A DNA stretch of 30,984 bases. It comes from a virus. Position numbers and translations under genes: made by a program. The stretch spans positions 1 through 30,984 of the IMG/VR virus record IMGVR_UViG_3300046311_000124. One strand, given 5' to 3'. Every line of letters begins with the position of its first letter. Position 1 is the first letter of the stretch. The notes beneath the pieces were generated by a model that worked only from the letters and a program-made list of their open reading frames with translations, searched no databases and was not told the DNA's origin. Shown here one piece after another: positions 1,879-21,418 of this stretch.

Positions 1879-3102
1879 TCAGTTGATGTCGTGATACCTA
1901 CTAATTTCGGGAAATATATTGACGGTGTGTTTAGAATGTCTCTGCTTGGGGTCCGTGATGCCAAGATCTCCGGCCAGTTTGTTCTTAACAACGTTGAGGT
2001 AGCGCACATTCTCAAATCCATCCTTAAAGTTTTTACCAATGCCTAAGATCCAATCTGCCTCGGCTTGCTTAGCCACCTTAGCACCTGCAACTTCGTCCAT
2101 AGACAGCCATTGCTTGTGTGCTCCGTTAGCGTCTGCCTGGGTAACACCAATGACGGGTGCATAGGTCTTAGCAATCTCTCGAGCCCATCTAAACTTCTCT
2201 CCTAGCCGTAGGTCATCTCGGTCTGCCTTATCTCCTACACCTTTGATCTTATCGAGCTGGTCGAAAACAATCAAGCCCGGTTTGTACTTGGCACATGTCT
2301 TTTCAACCAAAGATGTGGAAATGTTGGCAGAATCTTTCATGATCCATCGGCCCTGGGTGGCCTCTTCAAAGAGCCTCTCGTAGTGTGGTACGTTGCTGTA
2401 GAGCTGTGATAGTTCTATGCCAAAGTAGGCCTGGTATACCCTAAGCATCACCTCTGAGCCAGCTTGCTCGTTGTTGTACCAATGCAAATACTCATCGGGC
2501 TGTAGCTGAGGAAACATGAAGGTTGTTTCTGAGGCTAACATCGAAGTTTTTCCAGTCTCCACAAAGGCGAAGATAAATCCAAAGTTGTTCTTACGGATAG
2601 AGCCCAGGCTTTTGTTCAAACAGTCAAGCCTCCACGTTAGACCTGGTTTGGTGTAGCTCTCGTTAAGTAGGTCAGAAAGCTTTGTGCTAACGAAATCATC
2701 AGCAGACAATGCCTCTGTCGATCCATCTGGCAGGGCTACAATCGTTTTAAATAGCTCCAAGGTCTCGACATAGCTTCCCTTACCTTCGGAGGCATCATAG
2801 GCCTTTAAAGCGGCTTCTCTAAGTAGCTTGTTGCGTTTGAGAGAGTCGATGTAGGTGGTGGTGGCTTGTGCATTGGGTAGCAGGGGATCCAGTTGCTCAA
2901 ACAGAGCGGTGTAGAACTCTTTGTCCTTCACCGGATTGGCGAAAAACAGAGAGGCGAGGTCGTAAACCGACAGGTCAGCTTTGTCTTCGTTGACACGATG
3001 GAAGGAGTCTAACACCCGGTACACAAGCTGTAGCTCAGAGGGCAAGTCTTGTGCTGAAACAGAGGTGTTGTGCTTAAACCATTGGTCAAAAGATAAAAAC
3101 AA
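1879..3102 (-). CDS. Replicative DNA helicase, DnaB/T7 gp4 helicase-type
   Basis: RecA-fold hexameric replicative helicase. The Walker A-like segment is AFVETGKTS (residues 179-187, with Ala in place of the usual first Gly). Walker B is LIVFDQLD (277-284). A Gln/Thr sensor-like segment, GVTQADANG, and basic residues follow. The 407 aa match the helicase half of T7 gp4; the primase half is the separate gene upstream. No ATG is available: the reading frame opens with TTG at 3102, but coding-like sequence continues upstream to an in-frame TAA at 3154, with an ATT at 3127-3129 as the other candidate start. The true N-terminus is therefore uncertain. Confidence 0.9.
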   Translation of the reverse strand: MFLSFDQWFKHNTSVSAQDLPSELQLVYRVLDSFHRVNEDKADLSVYDLASLFFANPVKDKEFYTALFEQLDPLLPNAQATTTYIDSLKRNKLLREAALKAYDASEGKGSYVETLELFKTIVALPDGSTEALSADDFVSTKLSDLLNESYTKPGLTWRLDCLNKSLGSIRKNNFGFIFAFVETGKTSMLASETTFMFPQLQPDEYLHWYNNEQAGSEVMLRVYQAYFGIELSQLYSNVPHYERLFEEATQGRWIMKDSANISTSLVEKTCAKYKPGLIVFDQLDKIKGVGDKADRDDLRLGEKFRWAREIAKTYAPVIGVTQADANGAHKQWLSMDEVAGAKVAKQAEADWILGIGKNFKDGFENVRYLNVVKNKLAGDLGITDPKQRHSKHTVNIFPEISRYHDIN

Positions 3103-3228
3103 TGCAAGGATGTTAAGTTCTGGTTTAATTTTCTCTTCTCTCTTTCTTTTCTTTTATATATCTCTTATATAAGATATATATTTCTTTAGGGTAGCACAGA
3201 AACGCAGTCTGTGAAGAGGGGTTTGTAC
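3103..3228 (-). promoter_or_regulatory. AT-rich, polypurine intergenic leader between primase and helicase
   Basis: This is the only sizeable gap in the replication cluster (126 bp). On the minus strand it holds an imperfect AT palindrome around TCTTATATAAGA, the 13-mer TAAGAGATATATA (3155-3167) and the 12-mer AGAGAAGAGAAA (3130-3141). Both also occur on the plus strand at 11573-11585 and 11612-11623 in the divergent intergenic region. The purine-rich tract could act as a ribosome-binding leader for the ATG-less helicase gene. A promoter or processing role is inference. Confidence 0.4.
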
Positions 3229-3918
3229 CTAGCTTAGGATGTCTAAAACGTCACAGTATTTGGGGTCTTTCTCGGTGAAGACTACGGAACTACTGCCTCC
3301 GAGCATGCGGATTTGTGTAGCAATGTTCTGAGCACTGCTGAGCATGTTGGAGTCAAGCCAAACGTAGATGTGCTCGTACTTCTTGGTCAGGTAGGGCAGT
3401 TTAGCTTTACTGATGCCACTACCAAGCAACGGCATGGATGATAGTTGTGTGTGCTTGTTTACCTTGATTGCTGACAAACAGTCTTCAACCAAAACAAGGT
3501 CATTGGCACCGTGGTAAATAGGGAACAATTTCTTGATGTCGCCTTTGGTAAACACCTTTGCCTTTGCGTTGGGACTAAAGTTGCGTGCTTGCCATGCAAG
3601 TATTTTGGCGTTTTCGTCATAAAAAGGGAAGATTAGTTGCTGTTTTGCCTCATTCCATAGCAGCCCATGTTTAATCATGTCCTCAACTGTTAGGCTAGCC
3701 TTGGAAACCCAGGCTATTGCTCTCTTGTCAAAGTCTTGGCTGCATTCTGGTGGTAGTACAACTGCATCTTCTTCGGATGCTTCCTCAATTTTAGGTACAA
3801 ACTTGGTAGTGCGGTTTCCTTTGCGGCAGCTAAAGCAGAAGGTAGAGCCATCAGGATAGCAGTACATTGCGTCTGAGCTTGTGCAAAAAGTGCACGCAGT
3901 GTGATGGCCCAGTCCCAT
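3229..3918 (-). CDS. DNA primase, zinc-binding plus TOPRIM (T7 gp4 primase-type)
   Basis: Synthesises RNA primers for lagging-strand replication. It begins with a T7 gp4-like zinc-binding domain, C9-x2-C12 ... C28-x2-C31, with the typical YPDGSTFCFSC arrangement. The TOPRIM domain follows: VLVEDCLSA (E145), then a glycine loop LLGSGIS, then VWLDSN (D189, N191). The usual DxD is DxN here, so the second acidic metal ligand appears substituted. The 229 aa correspond to the primase half of T7 gp4 with no helicase fused. A Shine-Dalgarno GGAGG precedes the ATG at 3918, immediately after the stop of the upstream gene. Confidence 0.9.
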   Translation of the reverse strand: MGLGHHTACTFCTSSDAMYCYPDGSTFCFSCRKGNRTTKFVPKIEEASEEDAVVLPPECSQDFDKRAIAWVSKASLTVEDMIKHGLLWNEAKQQLIFPFYDENAKILAWQARNFSPNAKAKVFTKGDIKKLFPIYHGANDLVLVEDCLSAIKVNKHTQLSSMPLLGSGISKAKLPYLTKKYEHIYVWLDSNMLSSAQNIATQIRMLGGSSSVVFTEKDPKYCDVLDILS

Positions 3919-4104
3919 TTAAACCTCCGAATGTTTTAAAGCATTGACACAAACTGCTTTGTTGGTGCCGCCTTGCTCGACGAAGCCCCTATTGATGAAG
4001 GCAGCCACTGCCTCACAATGACTATTGCTTTTAAAAGTAGCTATAGGCTGTGGAGATACTGAGCCGTTAACACTAAGAACTACAACCAGCACATATTGGA
4101 ACAT
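3919..4104 (-). CDS. Small protein with signal-like hydrophobic N-terminus, 61 aa
   Basis: The first 12 residues (MFQYVLVVVLSV) form a hydrophobic signal or membrane segment. The rest is a small soluble domain with two cysteines (SNSHCEAVAAF and KAVCVNAL) that could form a disulfide in the periplasm. A strong Shine-Dalgarno AAGGAG lies upstream, at the end of the previous gene. The stop is directly adjacent to the primase ATG. No family recognised. Confidence 0.65.
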   Translation of the reverse strand: MFQYVLVVVLSVNGSVSPQPIATFKSNSHCEAVAAFINRGFVEQGGTNKAVCVNALKHSEV

Positions 4105-4108
4105 GTTT

Positions 4109-4321
4109 TTACTCCTTGCCTTGCATAAGAATTATGATTGGGGTTACATACTTCATCACACTAGATATTCTCAGGTTGTAGTCTGCTGTTGACATACTTA
4201 CTATACCTGCCTCACGGTTGACTTGAAGCTGTACAAGCTCTAGTAGCTGCTTGCAAACCTCATGACTAGCTTTAACCTGAGCCACACAACTGCTAACAAT
4301 CATAGCTTCGTTAGGGGTCAT
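4109..4321 (-). CDS. Hypothetical protein, 70 aa
   Basis: Unrecognised. Mostly helical, with a C-terminal hydrophobic stretch (YVTPIIILMQ) that might be membrane-associated. Starts with ATG at 4321 overlapping the preceding gene by ATGA; stops 4 bp before the next start. Confidence 0.6.
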   Translation of the reverse strand: MTPNEAMIVSSCVAQVKASHEVCKQLLELVQLQVNREAGIVSMSTADYNLRISSVMKYVTPIIILMQGKE

Positions 4322-4659
4322 AGCAGCTCCAGGTAAACAGGCGGTACTAGGATGTTCTTAGGGGCTAGTTTAAAAAGGGGTGCAATTTCTTTTGCTTTGT
4401 GGTCTTCAAACACGGGGACAAAGAACGTCTTGTCTGGGGTACGCATTGCATACAAGATGAACTCATGGACAAAGGGCATCAGTCGGTAGAGAGGCAGCTT
4501 CTTGTGATCAAAGTCAAGGGTAGGAATAGCATAGGTCTCACTGGTCGGGCCGAAACATCCATCTGCTGTGTAGTAGTGTATCGCTGCGTGTTTACCGCTA
4601 ATCGTTTGCAGGTGGGCGCCATCCAGGGTTGTTGTAAATACAAAAATAGGCTTACTCAT
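4318..4659 (-). CDS. A1S_2505-like phage protein, 113 aa
   Basis: Resembles the small phage-related proteins often annotated A1S_2505. It has an N-terminal FVF strand, a G-x-H loop with HAA, the signature ETYAIPTLD, LPL, a helix with F-x-x-YA, then FFV, EIAPLF and AP. The biochemical role of that family is not established. The frame is open upstream to 4683, but the ATG at 4659 (MSKPIFVF) fits the family N-terminus and overlaps the upstream stop by 8 bp, as at the polymerase start. The family assignment is from remembered sequence pattern only. Confidence 0.65.
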   Translation of the reverse strand: MSKPIFVFTTTLDGAHLQTISGKHAAIHYYTADGCFGPTSETYAIPTLDFDHKKLPLYRLMPFVHEFILYAMRTPDKTFFVPVFEDHKAKEIAPLFKLAPKNILVPPVYLELL

Positions 4660-4834
4660 AGTAGCTTTCGTAGTTGGCAACATACTTGCTTGTTAAAAGA
4701 TCTTTCCTACCCGTGTACTTGATGCCCAAGCCGTCTAGGCACTTGAGGCATGTGTTGAGGTAGGCCTTGGTTTCTTTGTGCTTTAAACAGCTCTCGTAGT
4801 CTGTAAGCTCCGCATCACAGCAATCGCACCTCAT
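4652..4834 (-). CDS. Small zinc-ribbon-like protein, 60 aa
   Basis: Contains paired cysteines near both ends of the first half (MRCDCC at the N-terminus and CLKCL near residue 29), with an intervening Cys-x-x-His, consistent with one bound zinc. Function unknown; small phage zinc ribbons often bind host transcription or nucleic-acid proteins, but nothing here shows that. Overlaps its neighbours by ATGA (5') and 8 bp (3'). Confidence 0.6.
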   Translation of the reverse strand: MRCDCCDAELTDYESCLKHKETKAYLNTCLKCLDGLGIKYTGRKDLLTSKYVANYESYYE

Positions 4835-4992
4835 GGTAGCACCTCGTGTGCTTCCACTTCAACCCAGTATGATGCTGCCAATTTTGACTCCACATTCCTT
4901 TGATGAGCCACTGCCGACTCCAAGCTAAGAAATATACGGTCAATTTGGCTGGGCTCATCGTCTCGACCAAAAGAAACACTATAGACTTTCAT
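4831..4992 (-). CDS. Hypothetical small protein, 53 aa (MKxYxV mini-protein family)
   Basis: Frame from the ATG at 4992 to the TGA at 4831, joined at both ends by ATGA overlaps and preceded by a GGAGG-like site. The product starts MKVYSVSFGRDDEP, has a helix with SLESAVAHQ and ends WVEVEAHEVLP. It shares layout and ends with the product of 6204-6374 (MKVYVV ... HEVIS), so the two are probable paralogues. Function unknown. Confidence 0.65.
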   Translation of the reverse strand: MKVYSVSFGRDDEPSQIDRIFLSLESAVAHQRNVESKLAASYWVEVEAHEVLP

Positions 4993-5219
4993 TCTACATC
5001 CTCCAGACTATCAAACATACCATTTGTGTACGCTGTGGCTTCAGCAAACTGCAGGTCGCTCTCTGTGTACAGGTCGCCGTTCTCTTCCTTCCAAATATCA
5101 AAGCTTTCTTCTACAAAGCGGCAAAACTCGTCGTGGGTGATGTTCACTGAGTCGCCGTACGTGTCATAGAACAGGTCTTTGAGCATTGCCTTGAGGTAGT
5201 TTTGGCTGATGTCTTTCAT
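4989..5219 (-). CDS. Hypothetical acidic protein, 76 aa
   Basis: Unrecognised, rich in Asp/Glu and aromatic residues, mainly helical, no signal. A clear Shine-Dalgarno (AAGGA) sits in the junction cassette just upstream of the ATG at 5219. Overlaps both neighbours by ATGA or similar. Confidence 0.65.
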   Translation of the reverse strand: MKDISQNYLKAMLKDLFYDTYGDSVNITHDEFCRFVEESFDIWKEENGDLYTESDLQFAEATAYTNGMFDSLEDVE

Positions 5220-5353
5220 GATAGTTCCTTAAAGAGTGGGTAGAGAATTCCGTTATATCGTACCGCGAAGTCTTCAGCAACAAACCGATCTAGAGCTACG
5301 TACTTATCTTCTTTTCCAAGTCTTTGGTAGATCACAAGCCATGCGTCAGGCAT
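5216..5353 (-). CDS. Hypothetical small protein, 45 aa
   Basis: Frame from the ATG at 5353 to the TGA at 5216. The product starts MPDAWLVIYQRLGKED and ends LFKELS. The last codons form the repeated junction AAG GAA CTA TCA TGA, which also provides the Shine-Dalgarno and start of the next gene. The 5' end overlaps the upstream gene by 8 bp. Confidence 0.6.
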   Translation of the reverse strand: MPDAWLVIYQRLGKEDKYVALDRFVAEDFAVRYNGILYPLFKELS

Positions 5354-5471
5354 TTTCGTCTCCTTTACTCTCTGTGTATCGAAGGACTTCTTCGTAAACT
5401 TCCCATGTGGTGTAGCTTACATCAGGCAACAAGTCGTTGTCAAGCGGGAGAAGCTTTCTTTTTTGGTTCAT
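5346..5471 (-). CDS. Hypothetical small protein, 41 aa
   Basis: Frame from the ATG at 5471 to the TGA at 5346, with an ATGA overlap at its start and an 8-bp overlap at its end. Product MNQKRKLLPLDNDLLPDVSY... continuing into an acidic helix. No recognised family. Support is positional: it fills the gap and uses the same junction types as its neighbours. Confidence 0.55.
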   Translation of the reverse strand: MNQKRKLLPLDNDLLPDVSYTTWEVYEEVLRYTESKGDENA

Positions 5472-5731
5472 TGCGCGGACCTCTTGTTGGCATGTACAAC
5501 GTAGCACTCAGCAAAGGCTCTCTGTAGGTCGGTGGCTAGATCAACCATACCACTGTCTTCGGCTTGTTTGTGTAAAACTTTAAGCACAAGCATTGTGTCG
5601 ACCTCGGGGTATTCATTGTCAGCTATGGCCCGGCATGCTGCTGCAGCCCATAAACCATTGGGGGAGATAGAGCCAGCACAAGCGTCCATCTGGGCGGTCA
5701 TACAGTCGTTAAGCATGTAGTTGCCGAGCAT
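5468..5731 (-). CDS. Hypothetical protein, 87 aa
   Basis: Unrecognised, helical, with several Cys and Met in an Ala-rich central segment (LWAAAACRAIA). The frame could begin at a TTG at 5743, but the ATG at 5731 is preferred: it follows the upstream stop by one base and is preceded by GGAG at suitable spacing. Ends with an ATGA overlap. Confidence 0.65.
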   Translation of the reverse strand: MLGNYMLNDCMTAQMDACAGSISPNGLWAAAACRAIADNEYPEVDTMLVLKVLHKQAEDSGMVDLATDLQRAFAECYVVHANKRSAQ

Positions 5732-5732
5732 A

Positions 5733-5846
5733 TCAGGCTCCAAAGAGTAGGTACGTCACTGTAAACGCATACAAGTAAACTGTCAACCACACAACGTCAC
5801 TATGTAGGTCATCTAATGGGCTAAGGTCAAGGCTAGGCTTGTTCAT
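5733..5846 (-). CDS. Small predicted membrane protein, 37 aa
   Basis: Frame from the ATG at 5846 to the TGA at 5733. The C-terminal half (VVWLTVYLYAFTVTYLLFGA) is a single strong hydrophobic segment, so the product is probably a one-pass inner-membrane peptide with its N-terminus MNKPSLDLSPLDD outside the bilayer. Its start lies in the AAGGAACTATCATGA junction. Confidence 0.6.
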   Translation of the reverse strand: MNKPSLDLSPLDDLHSDVVWLTVYLYAFTVTYLLFGA

Positions 5847-6073
5847 GATAGTTCCTTGCGGTGTGGCTGATTAATTATCACATGTTTTCTTATCTTTTTC
5901 GCCATATGTCTAATGGTTTTTGTACGCTCTCGTATGCCCTCTAGGACGCGCTCTAATTTATATAGGTCATGTTTATCTTTACCCTTACAATAAACATCAA
6001 CGACCCAAGCAGAGATGTTACGAAGTTCGAAGACTGCGTCATCCATGACGCGCAATTCATAATTTATGTCCAT
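5843..6073 (-). CDS. Hypothetical basic helical protein, 76 aa
   Basis: Unrecognised; long helices with many Lys/Arg (a segment around KLERVLEGIRERTKTIRHM) and a C-terminal PHRKELS. Two adjacent ATGs at 6076 and 6073 are possible. The second is chosen because it lines up with the start in the repeated AAGGAACTATxATG junction at the two other sites. A nucleic-acid-binding role is only suggested by charge. Confidence 0.6.
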   Translation of the reverse strand: MDINYELRVMDDAVFELRNISAWVVDVYCKGKDKHDLYKLERVLEGIRERTKTIRHMAKKIRKHVIINQPHRKELS

Positions 6074-6207
6074 CATAGTTCCTTGTTGAGGGACTGGAAG
6101 TACGCCATCGCTGCGCGCTCGTAGGTGTCCCGTATCATCGCTAGGTCATCCTGTGCACCCAGGTAGTTCTGATAGGCCCGCATGTATTCCAATTCTTCGG
6201 GGGTCAT
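6073..6207 (-). CDS. Hypothetical small protein, 44 aa
   Basis: Frame from the ATG at 6207 to the TGA at 6073, overlapping both neighbours. The product starts MTPEELEYMRAYQNYLG, is helical throughout and ends SLNKEL, the ending encoded by the repeated junction cassette. Function unknown. Confidence 0.6.
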   Translation of the reverse strand: MTPEELEYMRAYQNYLGAQDDLAMIRDTYERAAMAYFQSLNKEL

Positions 6208-6374
6208 GATATCACCTCGTGCTCATTAACAAAACACCAGCGTAGGCCGCGCCCGTCAATGCCTTCCTCACGATCTAGGCGATTCCTTAGTTCCTGTGCC
6301 TTGTCATAGTTTGCGAATATGGCTTTTATAATTTCACCATCGTGAGCAATTTGCGTGACTACGTAGACTTTCAT
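6204..6374 (-). CDS. Hypothetical small protein, 56 aa (MKxYxV mini-protein family)
   Basis: Frame from the ATG at 6374 to the TGA at 6204, joined by ATGA at both ends. The product starts MKVYVVTQIAHDGEI, has a helix (NYDKAQELRNRLDREEG) and ends WCFVNEHEVIS. The N-terminal MKVYxV and C-terminal hEV match 4831-4992, and the overall strand-strand-helix-strand layout matches 1681-1857. Likely members of one expanded mini-protein family. Confidence 0.65.
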   Translation of the reverse strand: MKVYVVTQIAHDGEIIKAIFANYDKAQELRNRLDREEGIDGRGLRWCFVNEHEVIS

Positions 6375-6736
6375 GATGTCTCCTTAATCCCGTTATTGTT
6401 CAGCCATTTCAAGGATTGAATCTGTGCGTCTGCCGATCTCAACTCCGACTGTAGTAATCTAATACGTTCCATAAGTTTTTCAGTGCGCCCCTGCTCCTTA
6501 AAAAAGTCACCAATCCTAAGCGACGCCTCAAAAGACACATGACCATTACTAGACTTTTCCTGGTTGATTGCACAGTAATCTATTAACTTGTGTGCCAATT
6601 GGTCAGCCATCATGCGTTTAATATGGGCGCCGTGATCAAACTTTGTATTTTCCAACTCAAACGTAGATACTGCAATTCTCAATTGCATGACTTTATCAAG
6701 CTCGGGGTATTGGGTTGCGGGTATATTAAGTTTCAT
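6371..6736 (-). CDS. Hypothetical protein with C-terminal coiled coil, 121 aa
   Basis: Unrecognised. The last ~45 residues (EKLMERIRLLQSELRSADAQ and on) have the heptad pattern of a coiled coil, so it may dimerise. Starts at the ATG at 6736, 9 bp after the upstream stop; ends with ATGA into the next gene. Confidence 0.65.
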   Translation of the reverse strand: MKLNIPATQYPELDKVMQLRIAVSTFELENTKFDHGAHIKRMMADQLAHKLIDYCAINQEKSSNGHVSFEASLRIGDFFKEQGRTEKLMERIRLLQSELRSADAQIQSLKWLNNNGIKETS

Positions 6737-6744
6737 GATTGAAC

Positions 6745-6891
6745 CTATAGTTGTGTGAGTGTTGACTCATATGTGATAAATTCCCTATTGGGGTGATCTA
6801 AAAGGAATCTACGCGCATCAAGTGGAGTTGGAAATACTCCAAGCGAAATTTCCCCGCTTTGGTTCTTAATTACTAATTCCCAAATCATCAT
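6745..6891 (-). CDS. Hypothetical small protein, 48 aa
   Basis: Frame from the ATG at 6891 (or the adjacent ATG at 6888) to the TAG at 6745. Product MMIWELVIKNQSGEISLGVF, then a short helix (DARRFLLDHP) and a final strand. Its strand-turn-strand-helix-strand order is like the MKxYxV mini-proteins though the sequence is less similar. The start overlaps the stop of the barrel-protein gene. Confidence 0.55.
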   Translation of the reverse strand: MMIWELVIKNQSGEISLGVFPTPLDARRFLLDHPNREFITYESTLTQL

Positions 6892-7364
6892 AAGATTCTC
6901 CATTTAAATTGAACCACAACTGCACCATCAACGTGCTGCTTGGGGATGTTAGGTATCACCCCAACGTTGAAGCCGAAGGTCTTGCCCTCCCAAGTAGCCA
7001 TCGGGATCGCCGCGAAGAACGCACCACCATCCTTCTTGAGCGGGTACCCGTCTAACAGGCCAGCCGACACGCCAAACTTGATTCCGGCGATGTGTAGTGG
7101 CTGGTACTGAACTGAGGCATAGCGGCTTCTTAAATTGAGACTGTTTTTATGAAAGCCTGCCATCACTGACAGGTCCTCATTGGCGCGCCACTCAACACCT
7201 AAGCCAGGATGAACTTCATTGAATTGCTTAGCACGGTCGAAATGTCTAGACACAGCACCTGTATTGATCCAAAGCTCGCTAGCTTCACAAGAGTTCTGTA
7301 CAAACAAGGTGACAAACAAGATTAACCATGTAAGCATGATAGTAAGTACTTTGCCAACACTCAT
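6888..7364 (-). CDS. Putative outer-membrane beta-barrel protein with signal peptide, 158 aa
   Basis: Has a typical Sec signal peptide (residues 1-29, hydrophobic core LTIMLTWLILFVTLFV ending near CEA). The mature part alternates hydrophobic and polar residues with aromatic girdles (LWINTGAVSRHF, YASVQYQPL, FGFNVGVIPN) and ends in a strand VVVQFKWRIL. That architecture fits a small 8-stranded outer-membrane barrel, and it resembles uncharacterised proteobacterial barrel-like proteins. Its start overlaps the glycosyltransferase stop by ATGA, so it is the distal gene of the envelope cassette. A role such as receptor masking, lipid-A modification or superinfection exclusion is inference. Confidence 0.6.
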   Translation of the reverse strand: MSVGKVLTIMLTWLILFVTLFVQNSCEASELWINTGAVSRHFDRAKQFNEVHPGLGVEWRANEDLSVMAGFHKNSLNLRSRYASVQYQPLHIAGIKFGVSAGLLDGYPLKKDGGAFFAAIPMATWEGKTFGFNVGVIPNIPKQHVDGAVVVQFKWRIL

Positions 7365-8374
7365 TTTGTATCTCCTATAGGTGTTAGGTTGTTAATAAAA
7401 GTGTCCGCTGCTTTTAACCAACTGTACTTTGCTGCATTTTCTAACACAGACTTTCTACCTTTGAGCTTGAAGGCCCTCTCAACTGCCTTGCTTAGATCAT
7501 CATCAAGAGCACCGCCCATTCCCTCTACAACCACATCTCTAGGGCCCTCTACATTGTAAGCCGCCACCGGGGTGCCACATGCCATTGCTTCGATGCTCAC
7601 GATGCCTAGTGTATCAGTTTTTGAGGGGAACACAAACACATCGGCGCTAGCGTAGTACTTAGCCAACTCAACGCCAGTTTTGAAGCCAACAAAGGTAGCA
7701 TCACCTAGCTGCTCCAGGCGTGCTCTGTCTGGACCATCGCCAACCACCCACAAGCGACAGTCAAAGATCTCACTCAAGGCTAAGAAGGCGTCTATATTCT
7801 TTTCTTTGGAAAGTCTACCAACATATAGCAAATTGATCTTGTTTCTAGGCATTTGCAAAGATGACGGACGTCTGGTCTTGAAGATCTGAGCATCAAAACC
7901 CCTACTCCACACAACCAGGTTCTTAAAGCCCTGCTCGGTTAGTCTGTCGGCTGTTGTTTTGCTTGGTGCGAAGACAGCAGATGAGCCACGATGAAACCAC
8001 TTGAAGAACGTTCGTGTAAGTATCTTTGGTATGCCGTATGTGCTGCTTAGGTACTCGGGGAAGTTGGTGTGGTAGTCTGTTGTGTAGTTCCAACCTTTAG
8101 CCATACACAGCAGCTTGGCTGCAATGCCTAAAGGGCCCTCAGTAACAATGTGTATTGAGTCTGGCTTACCCACAAGCTTAGCTATTTTCCATGGGTTGAT
8201 GGCTACGCGTATTTCTTTGTACGTGGGCAGTGCCATTGTCTTGAACATGCCTGGATGTATAACGCGTACACAATAGCCACGCTGCTCTAGTTGGCTCTTC
8301 ATCTCACGCATGGTGGTGACCACACCATTAATCTGTGGCATCCACGCATCAGTCACTATGAGTATTTGTTTCAT
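7361..8374 (-). CDS. Glycosyltransferase family 4 (GT-B), MgtA/SQDG-synthase-like
   Basis: Predicted nucleotide-sugar-dependent glycosyltransferase acting on a membrane lipid. Its N-terminal Rossmann domain starts MKQILIVTDAWMPQINGVV, the glycine-loop acceptor motif of lipid glycosyltransferases, followed by VTEGPLG and DYHTNFPEY. The C-terminal donor domain has YVGRLSKEKNI, VVGDGP, and SKTDTLGIVSIEAMACGTPV, the E-x7-E motif with Asp254 in place of the first Glu and E262. The 337 aa are full length. The frame opens with GTG at 8404, but the ATG at 8374 fits the family and overlaps the upstream hydrolase gene by 26 bp. The same hydrolase/GT4 pair is familiar from bacterial chromosomes, pointing to acquisition from a host. 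Confidence 0.88.
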   Translation of the reverse strand: MKQILIVTDAWMPQINGVVTTMREMKSQLEQRGYCVRVIHPGMFKTMALPTYKEIRVAINPWKIAKLVGKPDSIHIVTEGPLGIAAKLLCMAKGWNYTTDYHTNFPEYLSSTYGIPKILTRTFFKWFHRGSSAVFAPSKTTADRLTEQGFKNLVVWSRGFDAQIFKTRRPSSLQMPRNKINLLYVGRLSKEKNIDAFLALSEIFDCRLWVVGDGPDRARLEQLGDATFVGFKTGVELAKYYASADVFVFPSKTDTLGIVSIEAMACGTPVAAYNVEGPRDVVVEGMGGALDDDLSKAVERAFKLKGRKSVLENAAKYSWLKAADTFINNLTPIGDTK

Positions 8375-9095
8375 GTTTGGCCCAATAGATAATGTTAAAC
8401 TCACCTGTTGTATGTTCGACTAGGGCAGAGCAATTGTCTACCCAGTCACCGCAGTTCATGTACACAACATCATCAATCGTCTTGATTTCAGGGTGGTGGA
8501 TGTGCCCGCATATCACCCCATGATAGTTCTTTCTCTTGCAGTGTTGTGCTAGTGCATCCTCGAATGCAAAGATGTAGCTTACCGCACTCTTGACTCTGTG
8601 CTTAAGATATTTACTTAGGCTCCAGTATTTAAATCCCATCTTGTGGCGTAATGCATTGAGCTTACCATTGAGGTATAGCACTAGGTCATACAGGCTATCA
8701 CCTAGCATGACAAGCCACTTACCTACGCTAATTACACCATCAAACGCATCGCCGTGCGTCACTAGGTAGCGCTTACCATCAACACCAATGTGCTCATACT
8801 TGTGATGTACCTGCAAACCACCAAGCACTAGCTTACCTTTGAGCTGTCTTAGAAACTCGTCATGATTGCCAGATATGTATACAACATTAGGTAGGCCTAG
8901 TATGTGGTTTACTACCGCAGTGTGGCTTTTCTTCCACTTCCACTTGTTCCGCAACACTTTCCACCCGTCAATAATATCTCCAACAAGATACAACGTATCG
9001 CAGGTGTGGTGTTGTAAGAAGTTTAAAAGCACCTTGGCTTGTGCGCTTCCTGCACCAAGGTGTGTGTCAGAGATAAAGATTGATCGGTAGTGCAT
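8349..9095 (-). CDS. LpxH-like metallophosphoesterase (UDP-2,3-diacylglucosamine diphosphatase-type)
   Basis: Calcineurin-like phosphoesterase related to LpxH (COG2908), whose known reaction cleaves UDP-2,3-diacylglucosamine in lipid A synthesis. All metal-ligand motifs are present: D10-x-H12 (ISDTHLG), G39-D40 (VGDIIDG), G76-NHDE, H114 (VTHGD) and GHIHH (H198, H200). The 248 aa is normal length. This subgroup (WSLSKYLKHRVK, GDWVDNCSALVEH) usually sits beside a GT4 glycosyltransferase, as here, so the substrate may be a related glycolipid precursor rather than the LpxH substrate itself. The ATG at 9095 is preferred over the TTG at 9116; AGGA precedes it. Confidence 0.88.
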   Translation of the reverse strand: MHYRSIFISDTHLGAGSAQAKVLLNFLQHHTCDTLYLVGDIIDGWKVLRNKWKWKKSHTAVVNHILGLPNVVYISGNHDEFLRQLKGKLVLGGLQVHHKYEHIGVDGKRYLVTHGDAFDGVISVGKWLVMLGDSLYDLVLYLNGKLNALRHKMGFKYWSLSKYLKHRVKSAVSYIFAFEDALAQHCKRKNYHGVICGHIHHPEIKTIDDVVYMNCGDWVDNCSALVEHTTGEFNIIYWAKHETNTHSD

Positions 9096-9096
9096 G

Positions 9097-9243
9097 TTAT
9101 GTCCTATGTATTTCAAGAGCCTTTAGTTTATACTCAAGATCTATTATCTTCAGTGTTAGCTCCAACTCTCTCTTAATGCGCTGTTGAATCTTATCCTCTA
9201 GCTTCTTAATGTAGCTTGTTAGTAGTTCTTCAGTTGCATTCAT
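9097..9243 (-). CDS. Small coiled-coil protein, 48 aa
   Basis: Frame from the ATG at 9243 to the TAA at 9097, one base before the metallophosphoesterase start. The whole product (MNATEELLTSYIKKLEDKIQ... LEYKLKALEIHRT) has a leucine/isoleucine heptad pattern of a single coiled coil. It is the leader gene of the envelope cassette. Function unknown. Confidence 0.65.
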   Translation of the reverse strand: MNATEELLTSYIKKLEDKIQQRIKRELELTLKIIDLEYKLKALEIHRT

Positions 9244-9364: not shown

Positions 9365-9547
9365 TTATCTCCAAAAAATATGCCCTGAGTGCCGGGCATA
9401 GTTGTTTTTAAAATGATTATAGGCTATCTTCGGTGTATCTCCTAGATATCCGTAAGTATCTCCAGGCATACTACAAAACCACATTCTTTTGGCTGGCCTG
9501 TTGCTACCTTTGAGTGTGTGCATCTCAACTTTTATGTGTGGCTTCAT
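9365..9547 (-). CDS. Hypothetical protein, 60 aa
   Basis: Unrecognised. The frame opens at 9631, but the ATG at 9547 (MKPHIKVEMHTL) forms an ATGA with the upstream stop and is preferred. Contains a KRMWFCSMPGDTYGYLGDTP segment and a C-terminal helix ending in GHIFWR. Probably soluble. Confidence 0.6.
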   Translation of the reverse strand: MKPHIKVEMHTLKGSNRPAKRMWFCSMPGDTYGYLGDTPKIAYNHFKNNYARHSGHIFWR

Positions 9548-15290: not shown

Positions 15291-16038
15291 TAACATACTG
15301 GTCGTCTTTAAATCCATTGAATTCGGTGGATCTCTATAACGAATGTTATAGACAATACCGAGCCAAGCCTCGTAAGAGGAAGGTGTAACGACTAGCCGAA
15401 AGGCGTAGAGATCATGTGATCTCGAAGTGGTGGACACCTAGAAATAGGTGAAGATATAGTCTGCTCTGCATGGTGACATGCAGCATCAATTAACATAGGA
15501 GAATTTCTATGCAAACATATTATTCAAATTCCGGTTGTGAGTATACAATTCTCTCTAAAGATAAAAAGGATTGTATTATTCAATTCACAAAAACTGGTTC
15601 TGTACGTAGAGCTAACATAGACAACATAAAAGTTGGTAAAGTTAGAGACTTGTATGCCACTAGTTGTTACGGAGTTGGTTATTTAGGAGTTTACAAACGA
15701 ACCGGATATCATGTTCAAGCTAACCAGCTATGGAGAAACATGATAAAACGGTGTTATACTGATGACCCAAGAGGTTATAAGTCTAAAAAAACTACTGTAG
15801 ATCCTAGATGGCACTGCCTTTCTAATTTCATTGACGACCTACCGAAGCTTAAGAACTTTAATAGGTGGCTTGCTAATGAAAATTACCAGCTAGACAAAGA
15901 CCTGTTAGTACCAGGCTCAAACGTCTATAGCTTAGAGACATGCCAATTTATCTCTGAGGCTGAGAACAAAAGTGCAGGCAAAAAGAATAAAAAGTTGATT
16001 GATGGGCAGTGGGTAACAGCCACTGTTTAACACTAACG
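15291..16038 (+). ncRNA. Group I intron in large terminase gene (748 nt)
   Basis: Self-splicing ribozyme. P1 forms between exon end GACGAT and the internal guide GTCGTC near 15301-15307, with the required U-G pair at the 5' splice site after T15290. Core elements are in order: P (GAATTCGGTGG, ~15319), Q (AATACCGAGCC) pairing as P4, R (TAACGACTAG, ends 15395) and S (AAGATATAGTCTG, 15451-15463). The intron ends in G16038 and splicing restores the terminase frame exactly. The nuclease ORF lies 3' of S, in the P9 region, leaving the core free. Confidence 0.88.
15509..16030 (+). CDS. Intron-encoded HNH-like homing endonuclease
   Basis: 173 aa. The central and C-terminal parts match intron-borne HNH-type phage endonucleases: QLWRNMIKRCY, a basic stretch, a W-x-x-F-x-F like LSNFIDDLPKLKNFNRWL, then YQLDKDLLVPGSNVYSLETC and FISEAENKS. 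The Cys/Asn/Asp-rich second half would carry the metal site. An AGGAG is well placed before the ATG. It would cut intronless terminase genes so the intron spreads; target specificity is not shown by the sequence. Confidence 0.75.
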   Translation: MQTYYSNSGCEYTILSKDKKDCIIQFTKTGSVRRANIDNIKVGKVRDLYATSCYGVGYLGVYKRTGYHVQANQLWRNMIKRCYTDDPRGYKSKKTTVDPRWHCLSNFIDDLPKLKNFNRWLANENYQLDKDLLVPGSNVYSLETCQFISEAENKSAGKKNKKLIDGQWVTATV

Positions 16039-18176: not shown

Positions 18177-18377
18177 ATGCAAATTATAACACCAGCCGAT
18201 TTTAAAGAATGGAAAAACTCACAAGTAACCATAGCCTTTATGAACTCATTGCTAGAGCGCATTGAGGACACAAAGGATTTTTTGGTAGGGTGCCCACTAG
18301 AGGATGTTGTAAAACATCAGGGCTACATTATGGCAATTAAAGACATTATGCAACTTGACTTTGCAGGAGAGCAATAA
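18177..18377 (+). CDS. Hypothetical protein between portal and GroES, 66 aa
   Basis: Unrecognised helical protein (ITPADFKEWKNSQVTIAFMN and on). An AAGGAG lies unusually close to the ATG, one base away, so the true start might be slightly different. Located one base before the co-chaperonin gene, so probably a head-assembly accessory, by position only. Confidence 0.6.
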   Translation: MQIITPADFKEWKNSQVTIAFMNSLLERIEDTKDFLVGCPLEDVVKHQGYIMAIKDIMQLDFAGEQ

Positions 18378-18378
18378 A

Positions 18379-18714
18379 ATGGCAATCACACCAACCGGGC
18401 ATCACATCCTTGTCAAACCACAAAAACTTGAGGATGTAGACACCGCTTACAAGAAAGCTTCAGTGATGGGTATTATCATCCCAGAGGACGCAACCAAGAA
18501 GAAACAAGTTGGCGTGTCTACTGGAGTTGTAGTTGCTATGGGCTCAACAGCCTACAAAGAATATACAGACGGAACACCTTGGTGTAAAGTCGGTGATTTA
18601 GTTGCATATGTTAGGCATGGTGGAATGTTTATCGACGATCCAGAGAATGACGAGATTTTTCTTCTGTTGAACGATGGTGACATTGCTGCAATTTTAACTG
18701 GCTCCAAGGAATAA
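18379..18714 (+). CDS. GroES-like co-chaperonin (Cpn10 family)
   Basis: Partner lid for host GroEL, likely used to fold the capsid protein. 111 aa. GroES features: N-terminal HILVKPQKLE, a mobile-loop region (KKASVMGIIIPEDATKK), GVVVAMGS, VGDLVAYVRHGG, and a final strand EIFLLLNDGDIAAIL. The loop segment with hydrophobic GIIIP is the GroEL-binding motif. The ATG at 18379 fits the domain and has AGGAG upstream. It sits directly before scaffold in the head module, as T4 gp31 and other phage co-chaperonins serve capsid folding. Confidence 0.85.
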   Translation: MAITPTGHHILVKPQKLEDVDTAYKKASVMGIIIPEDATKKKQVGVSTGVVVAMGSTAYKEYTDGTPWCKVGDLVAYVRHGGMFIDDPENDEIFLLLNDGDIAAILTGSKE

Positions 18715-20574: not shown

Positions 20575-21418
20575 TTTTAATAGGGCCCCTATACAGTAAT
20601 GTAAAGGGATAATCTTTCTAATTGCTGGAAACTCCTTAGAGCCTTTAGTACCTATATGGTGACAATCTAAAGGATTGGACAATCAGCAGCTAATACAACT
20701 ACAGATGAATACAATCTATAAAATATCAAATTTAATTAATGGTAAAGTTTATGTTGGTCAAACAATACAAGGACTTCGCCAAAGACAAAAAGAGCATATT
20801 TGTAGATTTAACCGAGGTGAGAGAGATCATCTCCTCTATAAAGCATTTCGTAAGCACGGTCTTGACAATTTCTCATTTGAAGAGATTTGTAGTGTTCTTG
20901 ACGAGCGTGATTTAAACGCCGTTGAGCAAGAGCAAATAGCTTTTTATAATAGCTATGAACGTGGGTACAACATGACAGAGGGTGGTTACTCGGTTTCCCC
21001 AGAGACTCGTGAAAAATTACGTGCAAGTATGCAAGGGCGTAAAATCACATGGTATGACAAGATCAGAGAGTCTAGAGTTAAAAATATCAGTATGGACAGG
21101 ACAATAAAATACCACCTATTAAAACACGGTGAGTCAGAGTTGATTGTACACAATTTAAAACAATTCTGCAAAGACAACAATGTTAATTATAACAGTTTAA
21201 AAACGTCCAAGACTACTGGTAATGCAACTCGGGGATATTTGTTGTTGGAAAGTTCAACGACTAGTTCATTCGAACGTAGGGCCTAAGCAGGCTCGAAATG
21301 GAAGACCTCCTACCTCTCAGTAGGAAGAAGATATAGTCTGTTCTATATAGAGATATATAGCAGTTTTCGTTTGGGCACGGAAACGGAGTAGATTTAGCGA
21401 ATCTATTTGAACATCAAG
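20575..21418 (+). ncRNA. Group I intron in major capsid gene (844 nt)
   Basis: Self-splicing intron. P1: exon GGCCT with guide GGGCC (~20584) and U-G at the splice site after T20574. Core: P (AATTGCTGGAAAC, 20620-20632), Q (AATCAGCAGC, 20681-20690), R (GTTCAACGACTAG, 21252-21264) and S (AAGATATAGTCTG, 21328-21340); P and Q pair as P4 (TTGCTG/CAGCAG). It ends in G21418 and splicing restores the capsid frame. A GIY-YIG ORF lies between Q and R, and its 3' end overlaps R. Confidence 0.88.
20705..21286 (+). CDS. Intron-encoded GIY-YIG homing endonuclease
   Basis: 193 aa. GIY-YIG nuclease domain at the N-terminus: NTIYKISNLINGKVYVGQT (with IYK and YVG in place of GIY/YIG), LRQRQKEH, LLYKAFRKHGLDNFSFEEI and VEQEQIAFYNS. 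A DNA-binding C-terminal part follows (SPETREKLRASMQGR, then LKQFCKDNNVNYNSLKTS, like a nuclease-associated HTH repeat). The frame extends to a TTG at 20675, but the ATG at 20705 begins at the domain. Its last codons overlap the R element of the intron core. Confidence 0.85.
   Translation: MNTIYKISNLINGKVYVGQTIQGLRQRQKEHICRFNRGERDHLLYKAFRKHGLDNFSFEEICSVLDERDLNAVEQEQIAFYNSYERGYNMTEGGYSVSPETREKLRASMQGRKITWYDKIRESRVKNISMDRTIKYHLLKHGESELIVHNLKQFCKDNNVNYNSLKTSKTTGNATRGYLLLESSTTSSFERRA

Follow-up and report, generated by a model that had tools for sequence, protein, structure and literature searches.

Analysis of a 30,984-base virus record (the window, meaning the whole stretch of DNA examined) indicated that two overlapping minus-strand genes, at 8349-9095 and 7361-8374, very probably constitute a phage-borne PlcP-Agt pair, predicted from sequence to convert host phospholipid into glycolipid and likely to free phosphorus in the process. 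The three overlapping genes described in a first-pass annotation of this DNA proved to be real, and all four open reading frames of the gene run, including a short leading peptide, were confirmed on the minus strand, where they adjoin one another closely. The features of the region are as follows.

8349..9095, minus strand: predicted PlcP-type metallophosphoesterase; likely start ATG 9095 behind AGGA, the frame also opening at TTG 9116
7361..8374, minus strand: predicted Agt-type GT4 diacylglycerol glycosyltransferase; likely start ATG 8374, the frame also opening at GTG 8404
6888..7364, minus strand: PagP-like eight-stranded outer-membrane barrel with signal sequence, in the same gene run; PHROG 3600
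9097..9243, minus strand: 48-aa leading peptide
9379..9400, minus strand: terminator-like hairpin followed by six T at the upstream edge of the gene run, a weak feature, as shuffled sequences give about an equal number
1879..6903, minus strand: remainder of the leftward, putatively early run, downstream of the cassette and ending in a primase and a DnaB-like helicase
3229-3918, minus strand: primase of the leftward run
1879-3102, minus strand: DnaB-like helicase of the leftward run

The glycosyltransferase gene overlaps the hydrolase gene by 26 nt (ATG 8374 versus the hydrolase end at 8349), while the barrel ATG, preceded by AGGAGA, overlaps the glycosyltransferase stop. Gene ends overlap or abut, and the ribosome-binding sites of the hydrolase and the barrel are good. 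Small genes lie between the barrel and the primase and helicase genes, and the rightward side of the window harbors genes for holin, terminase, portal, capsid and head-connector proteins. A coiled coil is plausible in the 48-aa leading peptide, for which profile and homologue searches detected no family or relative. A nucleotide search of the cassette region against annotated phages gave no match.

Pfam comparison supported Metallophos/Metallophos_2 domains in the hydrolase and a GT4 domain in its neighbor (E 5e-9 to 5e-25). The catalytic motifs had been annotated as intact, correctly so, with DTH, GD, GNHDE and GHIHH present in the hydrolase and D264 and E272 forming the D-x7-E motif of the glycosyltransferase; overall, the hydrolase retains the calcineurin-type metal ligands DxH, GD, GNHD, HGD and GHxH. 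The initial description of this enzyme as LpxH-like, on the other hand, has to be revised. LpxH shares with it the calcineurin-like fold and the metal ligands, but is only 18-21% identical, carries a GNRD motif and occupies its own branch of the tree, whereas PlcP-type proteins of P. aeruginosa, Sinorhizobium and a Pelagibacteraceae genome are 44-48% identical to the window protein (48% for the PA3219-type PlcP of P. aeruginosa). The GNHD motif was found in the window hydrolase, in all 85 bacterial relatives and in 68 of 69 viral ones, versus GNRD in 12/12 LpxH sequences compared. Against the LpxH model the window hydrolase scored 38.1 bits, below the curated cut-off of 134, and in the hydrolase tree the 12 LpxH sequences split off with support 100, leaving the window among PlcP-type rows that include a P. 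aeruginosa locus (L177, a plasmid record). All 11 genomes with a true LpxH also carry a window-type paralogue; in these bacteria, true LpxH reached 280-340 bits on the LpxH model and the window-like paralogue 37-56 bits among the matches listed. Since the LpxH of these bacteria is a separate paralogue, by scores and by tree support, lipid A, proposed earlier as a target, is not expected to be acted upon, and diacylglycerol lipids are the expected substrates.

Two observations favor the earlier reading, in which an LpxH-like enzyme acts on UDP-diacylglucosamine and the GT4 enzyme on lipid A precursors: the closest solved structures to the hydrolase are LpxH, both by sequence (E 0.0013) and by fold, and its homologues are automatically named UDP-2,3-diacylglucosamine diphosphatase. 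PDB searches found no solved PlcP, so LpxH tops the fold comparison as the nearest solved fold, which makes this match uninformative. Given the model score, the low identity, the GNHD motif in place of GNRD, the clean split in the tree and the possession of both genes by bacteria, that reading is very improbable, and the hydrolase is assigned on its sequence to the PlcP-type metallophosphoesterases, the phospholipases C of phosphate-starvation lipid remodelling. At the P. aeruginosa locus mentioned above, the hydrolase gene adjoins genes for a family-1 glycosyltransferase and a cyclase-domain protein, an arrangement that we infer, from gene order and product names, to be that of PA3219 and PA3218, the products of which were experimentally tested and correspond to PlcP and Agt1, respectively (PMC8528852).

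The glycosyltransferase shows a corresponding relationship, with 42% identity to the PA3218-type Agt1. Mutation of 11 residues of the SAR11 diacylglycerol glycosyltransferase GTcp abolishes or nearly abolishes its activity (PMC8231724), and ten of them (GTcp G16, G82, G85, H104, R190, K195, D256, T257, G259 and E264) are retained in the window protein; the remaining one, F258, is Leu in the window and Tyr in the P. aeruginosa protein. The diagnostic Asp (GTcp D256), which replaces the usual GT4 Glu, is present in the window as D264. These features identify the window enzyme as a predicted Agt-type diacylglycerol glycosyltransferase. At the Asp256 position, 45 of 70 viral Agt relatives carry Glu, and their specificity or activity may differ; the window retains Asp. 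Matches to GT4 genes of an Acinetobacter "phage" were set aside, being surrounded by the chromosomal genes prc, nagZ, gcpE and hisS.

The adjacent order of the two genes recurs in both phages and bacteria. The hydrolase was found in the fetched flank of 77/80 viral GT4 loci, with the two genes overlapping or less than 200 nt apart in 66 of the 80 viral pairs measured, and a GT4 gene accompanies the hydrolase at 49/80 bacterial hydrolase loci. Because homologous pairs occur in the same order at more than 120 other loci, the pairing seen in the window is far beyond chance. Marine bacteria, SAR11 among them, often have agt downstream of plcP, and PlcP neighbors a lipid glycosyltransferase or surrogate-lipid gene (PMC4796936). 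With the bacterial PlcP-Agt systems of P. aeruginosa (PA3219/PA3218), SAR11 and Agrobacterium (PMC8528852, PMC4796936, PMC8231724), the window pair has in common the enzyme families, the gene order, the catalytic residues and 41-48% identity; it differs in its location in a phage run that is putatively early, its divergence, the lack of a Pho box found nearby and its membership in a mostly virus-specific lineage. The first-pass annotation had also viewed the genes as a phage-borne, host-type lipid-modifying pair outside the standard gene set of this phage group, and this view was upheld: PlcP was looked for and not found in 16 TerL-related viral records and four other barrel-carrying records, all of them possibly fragments.

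Phylogenetic analyses were consistent with a phage-borne lineage. Virus and bacteria labels changed five times on the hydrolase tree and three times on the GT4 tree, compared with 53 and 39 changes, respectively, in shuffles. In the tree of concatenated hydrolase and GT4 sequences, a split supported at 95/88 sets all 26 bacterial rows apart; the viral row nearest to them is L006, which also adjoins the bacteria in the hydrolase tree. By sequence, the majority of viral copies belong to a lineage distinct from that of the bacteria sampled. Since similarity to the window was the criterion by which both sets were collected, bacterial sampling is incomplete, and bacteria more closely related to the viral rows may exist. 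The window proteins are situated on long branches (0.57 and 0.83 in the single trees and 1.31 in the joint tree), and for this reason their specificity may have shifted.

The viral origin of the wider set of records was supported by hallmark genes. A T4-like capsid protein Gp23 was detected on 7/50 viral records (E below 1e-96) and was absent from 14 control genomes, and a terminase (TerL) domain was detected on 8/50; together, the hallmark families tested mark 10/50 records as phage, the remaining ones being mostly fragments, on which the phage sheath family was too rare to help. Some annotated phages, among them Pelagibacter phage Mosig and Synechococcus phage S-SRM01, carry the hydrolase by itself. 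Given how often bacterial genomes contain the pair, it could in principle be accidental host DNA or a mis-binned bacterial fragment with no role for the phage. For the window this is hardly credible, given the intact frames and catalytic residues, the phage genes flanking both sides, the cassette GC content resembling that of the rest of the contig and the lineage distinct from the sampled bacteria. Contamination as an explanation for all the records was likewise rejected, because capsid and terminase genes share records with the pair and the viral lineage is separate.

Individual records of this set deserve separate mention. The PlcP-like gene of a human faecal phage contig (L008, MT836169.1, 12 kb) has its closest counterpart in a Parabacteroides plasmid record (L179), which sets it apart from all other viral rows, and this contig may be bacterial DNA filed as phage. 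Viral PlcP-Agt loci also harbor genes for a fatty acid desaturase (L066:9151-9870) and for an Mpo1-like enzyme (2-hydroxy fatty acid dioxygenase; L083:7027-7632), hinting at broader lipid editing by PlcP-Agt phages. A second, distinct calcineurin-like phosphoesterase is encoded downstream of the pair at some viral loci, such as L038 (7141-7956); its cluster comprises 13 loci, five of them near the pair.

The third gene of the run had been annotated as a signal-peptide barrel, in agreement with its structural model, which predicts a signal helix and eight strands (pLDDT 78.5). It matches PHROG 3600, named PagP (E 8e-19). The gene overlaps, the top fold matches to PagP structures (Foldseek E 2e-6, VIA Z 15.1) and the alignment, itself weak, of barrel H41 and S75 with the PagP catalytic His and Ser would fit an envelope module of three genes, with lipid A acylation by a PagP-type barrel and a change of the glycerolipids by PlcP-Agt. 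However, OmpA and designed eight-stranded barrels come close behind PagP (Z 13.6-13.7), and profile comparison with E. coli PagP was not significant (E 0.28). The PagP catalytic residues are His33, Asp76 and Ser77; in the same weak alignment, the position of Asp76 is occupied by Asn in all six barrel sequences. With PagP and the phage PHROG 3600 barrels, the window protein has in common a predicted barrel fold and, in this alignment, the His and Ser positions; it departs from PagP in the Asp to Asn replacement and the weak sequence match.

The barrel was, moreover, counted earlier as a member of the cassette, and its distribution argues against this. Its relatives in other phage contigs (80, 61, 55, 52 and 27% identity) occur on records with no PlcP. 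The 52% relative belongs to a sister phage (TerL 76% identical, 45.8-kb record), in which an unrelated 88-aa open reading frame lies upstream of the barrel, where the window has the GT4 gene; this record ends inside the barrel, so that the absence of PlcP covers the record and a complete genome could still carry one. With no co-conservation of barrel and pair, the barrel was rejected as a part of the pair, and the three-gene module is unlikely. By its distribution the barrel would be a separate moron, i.e., an independent accessory gene, and, because its relatives occur without PlcP and the sister phage has another open reading frame at this position, the pair seems to have been inserted, as accessory genes, ahead of a barrel moron already present there.

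The proposed action of the pair follows from the predicted activities. PlcP belongs to the calcineurin-like superfamily and is a metal-dependent phospholipase C; it would split the glycerophospholipids of the host, yielding diacylglycerol and a phosphorylated head group. Agt would then attach glucose or glucuronic acid, supplied as a UDP-sugar, to the diacylglycerol. The resulting glycolipids would keep the bilayer intact, and infected cells would be expected to lose phospholipid and gain glycolipid. The phosphorus freed from the membrane could then serve phage DNA synthesis, the pair being encoded in the same leftward run as the primase and helicase, from which early expression may be presumed.

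The link to phosphorus is provided by the neighborhoods of the viral homologues. A gene for the phosphate-binding protein PstS is present on 21/50 viral records tested and at 25 pair loci, always on the strand of the pair and, at 19 of them, within about 1.3 kb. In Pelagibacter phage Mosig, a phosphate ABC transporter gene adjoins the hydrolase homologue. This company fits bacterial PlcP-Agt, since the bacterial pair is induced by phosphate shortage. Bacterial PlcP operons are usually controlled by PhoB through a Pho box; this control depends on host regulation and is not a defining property of the enzyme. Pho-box-like matches (at least 10 of 14 letters) were found upstream of 21/75 other viral copies, compared with about 5.5/75 in simple shuffles that ignore kinship among the copies. 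Such matches stand upstream of viral pstS or plcP at, for example, L033 and L050, and the motif makes regulation of the phage operon by host PhoB a possibility at these loci. In the window, no pstS was recognised, and a Pho-box scan near the pair gave nothing above chance.

These last two results, together with the PagP-like outer-membrane barrel adjoining the pair and the protection that glycolipids confer on P. aeruginosa against polymyxin B (PMC8528852), leave some room for another purpose of the same enzymes, namely a change in the charge or phospholipid content of the inner or outer host membrane, directed against superinfection or defence, or serving lysis or assembly, with phosphorus as a side effect. 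Such a purpose is possible but the less likely one, considering the PstS genes close to the pair at the 19 other viral loci and the lack of co-conservation between barrel and pair. Because PstS neighbors the pair in other viruses, phosphorus supply is better supported than the superinfection block or the assembly lipid suggested in the first-pass annotation, both of which we regard as possible.

Among the auxiliary metabolic genes of phages are host-derived ones for phosphorus, pstS and phoH. The PlcP-Agt pair resembles them in its host derivation, and PstS is its frequent neighbor; it differs in that it would draw on membrane phospholipid, not on phosphate import. Phospholipase, PlcP and lipid go unmentioned in a survey of phosphorus genes from soil phages (PMC10987575), as do phage-encoded or auxiliary genes in a paper on phage therapy and lipid renovation (PMC9804370). 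No paper on phage-encoded PlcP or viral lipid remodelling was found in a search that lay outside preprints and most subscription journals; as far as this literature shows, the enzymes are known and the phage-borne PlcP-Agt module is apparently undescribed. Two virome surveys list viral lpxH under lipopolysaccharide synthesis (PMC10653327, PMC9611531), the same automatic name that would fall on the window gene. Because window-type homologues are PlcP paralogues, some of these reports, compared here by name, may be misnamed plcP.

Taken more broadly, the balance tips slightly towards a picture in which several unrelated phage groups, T4-like phages and the group of the window phage included, share a virus-specific PlcP-Agt module, with or without PstS, that would digest host phospholipid in the course of infection, replace it with glycolipid and direct the phosphorus to replication, and in which many viral lpxH genes would be plcP. 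If this is true, phages would obtain phosphorus from the host's own membrane, a viral route different from phosphate uptake, and the membrane lipids of infected cells would be altered in lakes, soils and oceans. The GNHD versus GNRD motif, combined with the GT4 neighbor, offers a simple test for virome genes reported as lpxH.

Further genes were noted on the rightward side of the window. A GroES-like co-chaperonin (18355-18714, PHROG 3188) is encoded amid the phage structural genes, and two relatives (L211 and L212) keep one as well. A GIY-YIG homing endonuclease gene (20675-21286) is located immediately ahead of the capsid gene, and an HNH endonuclease gene (15509-16030) has the terminase on one side and the portal on the other; both are likely homing elements in the head module.
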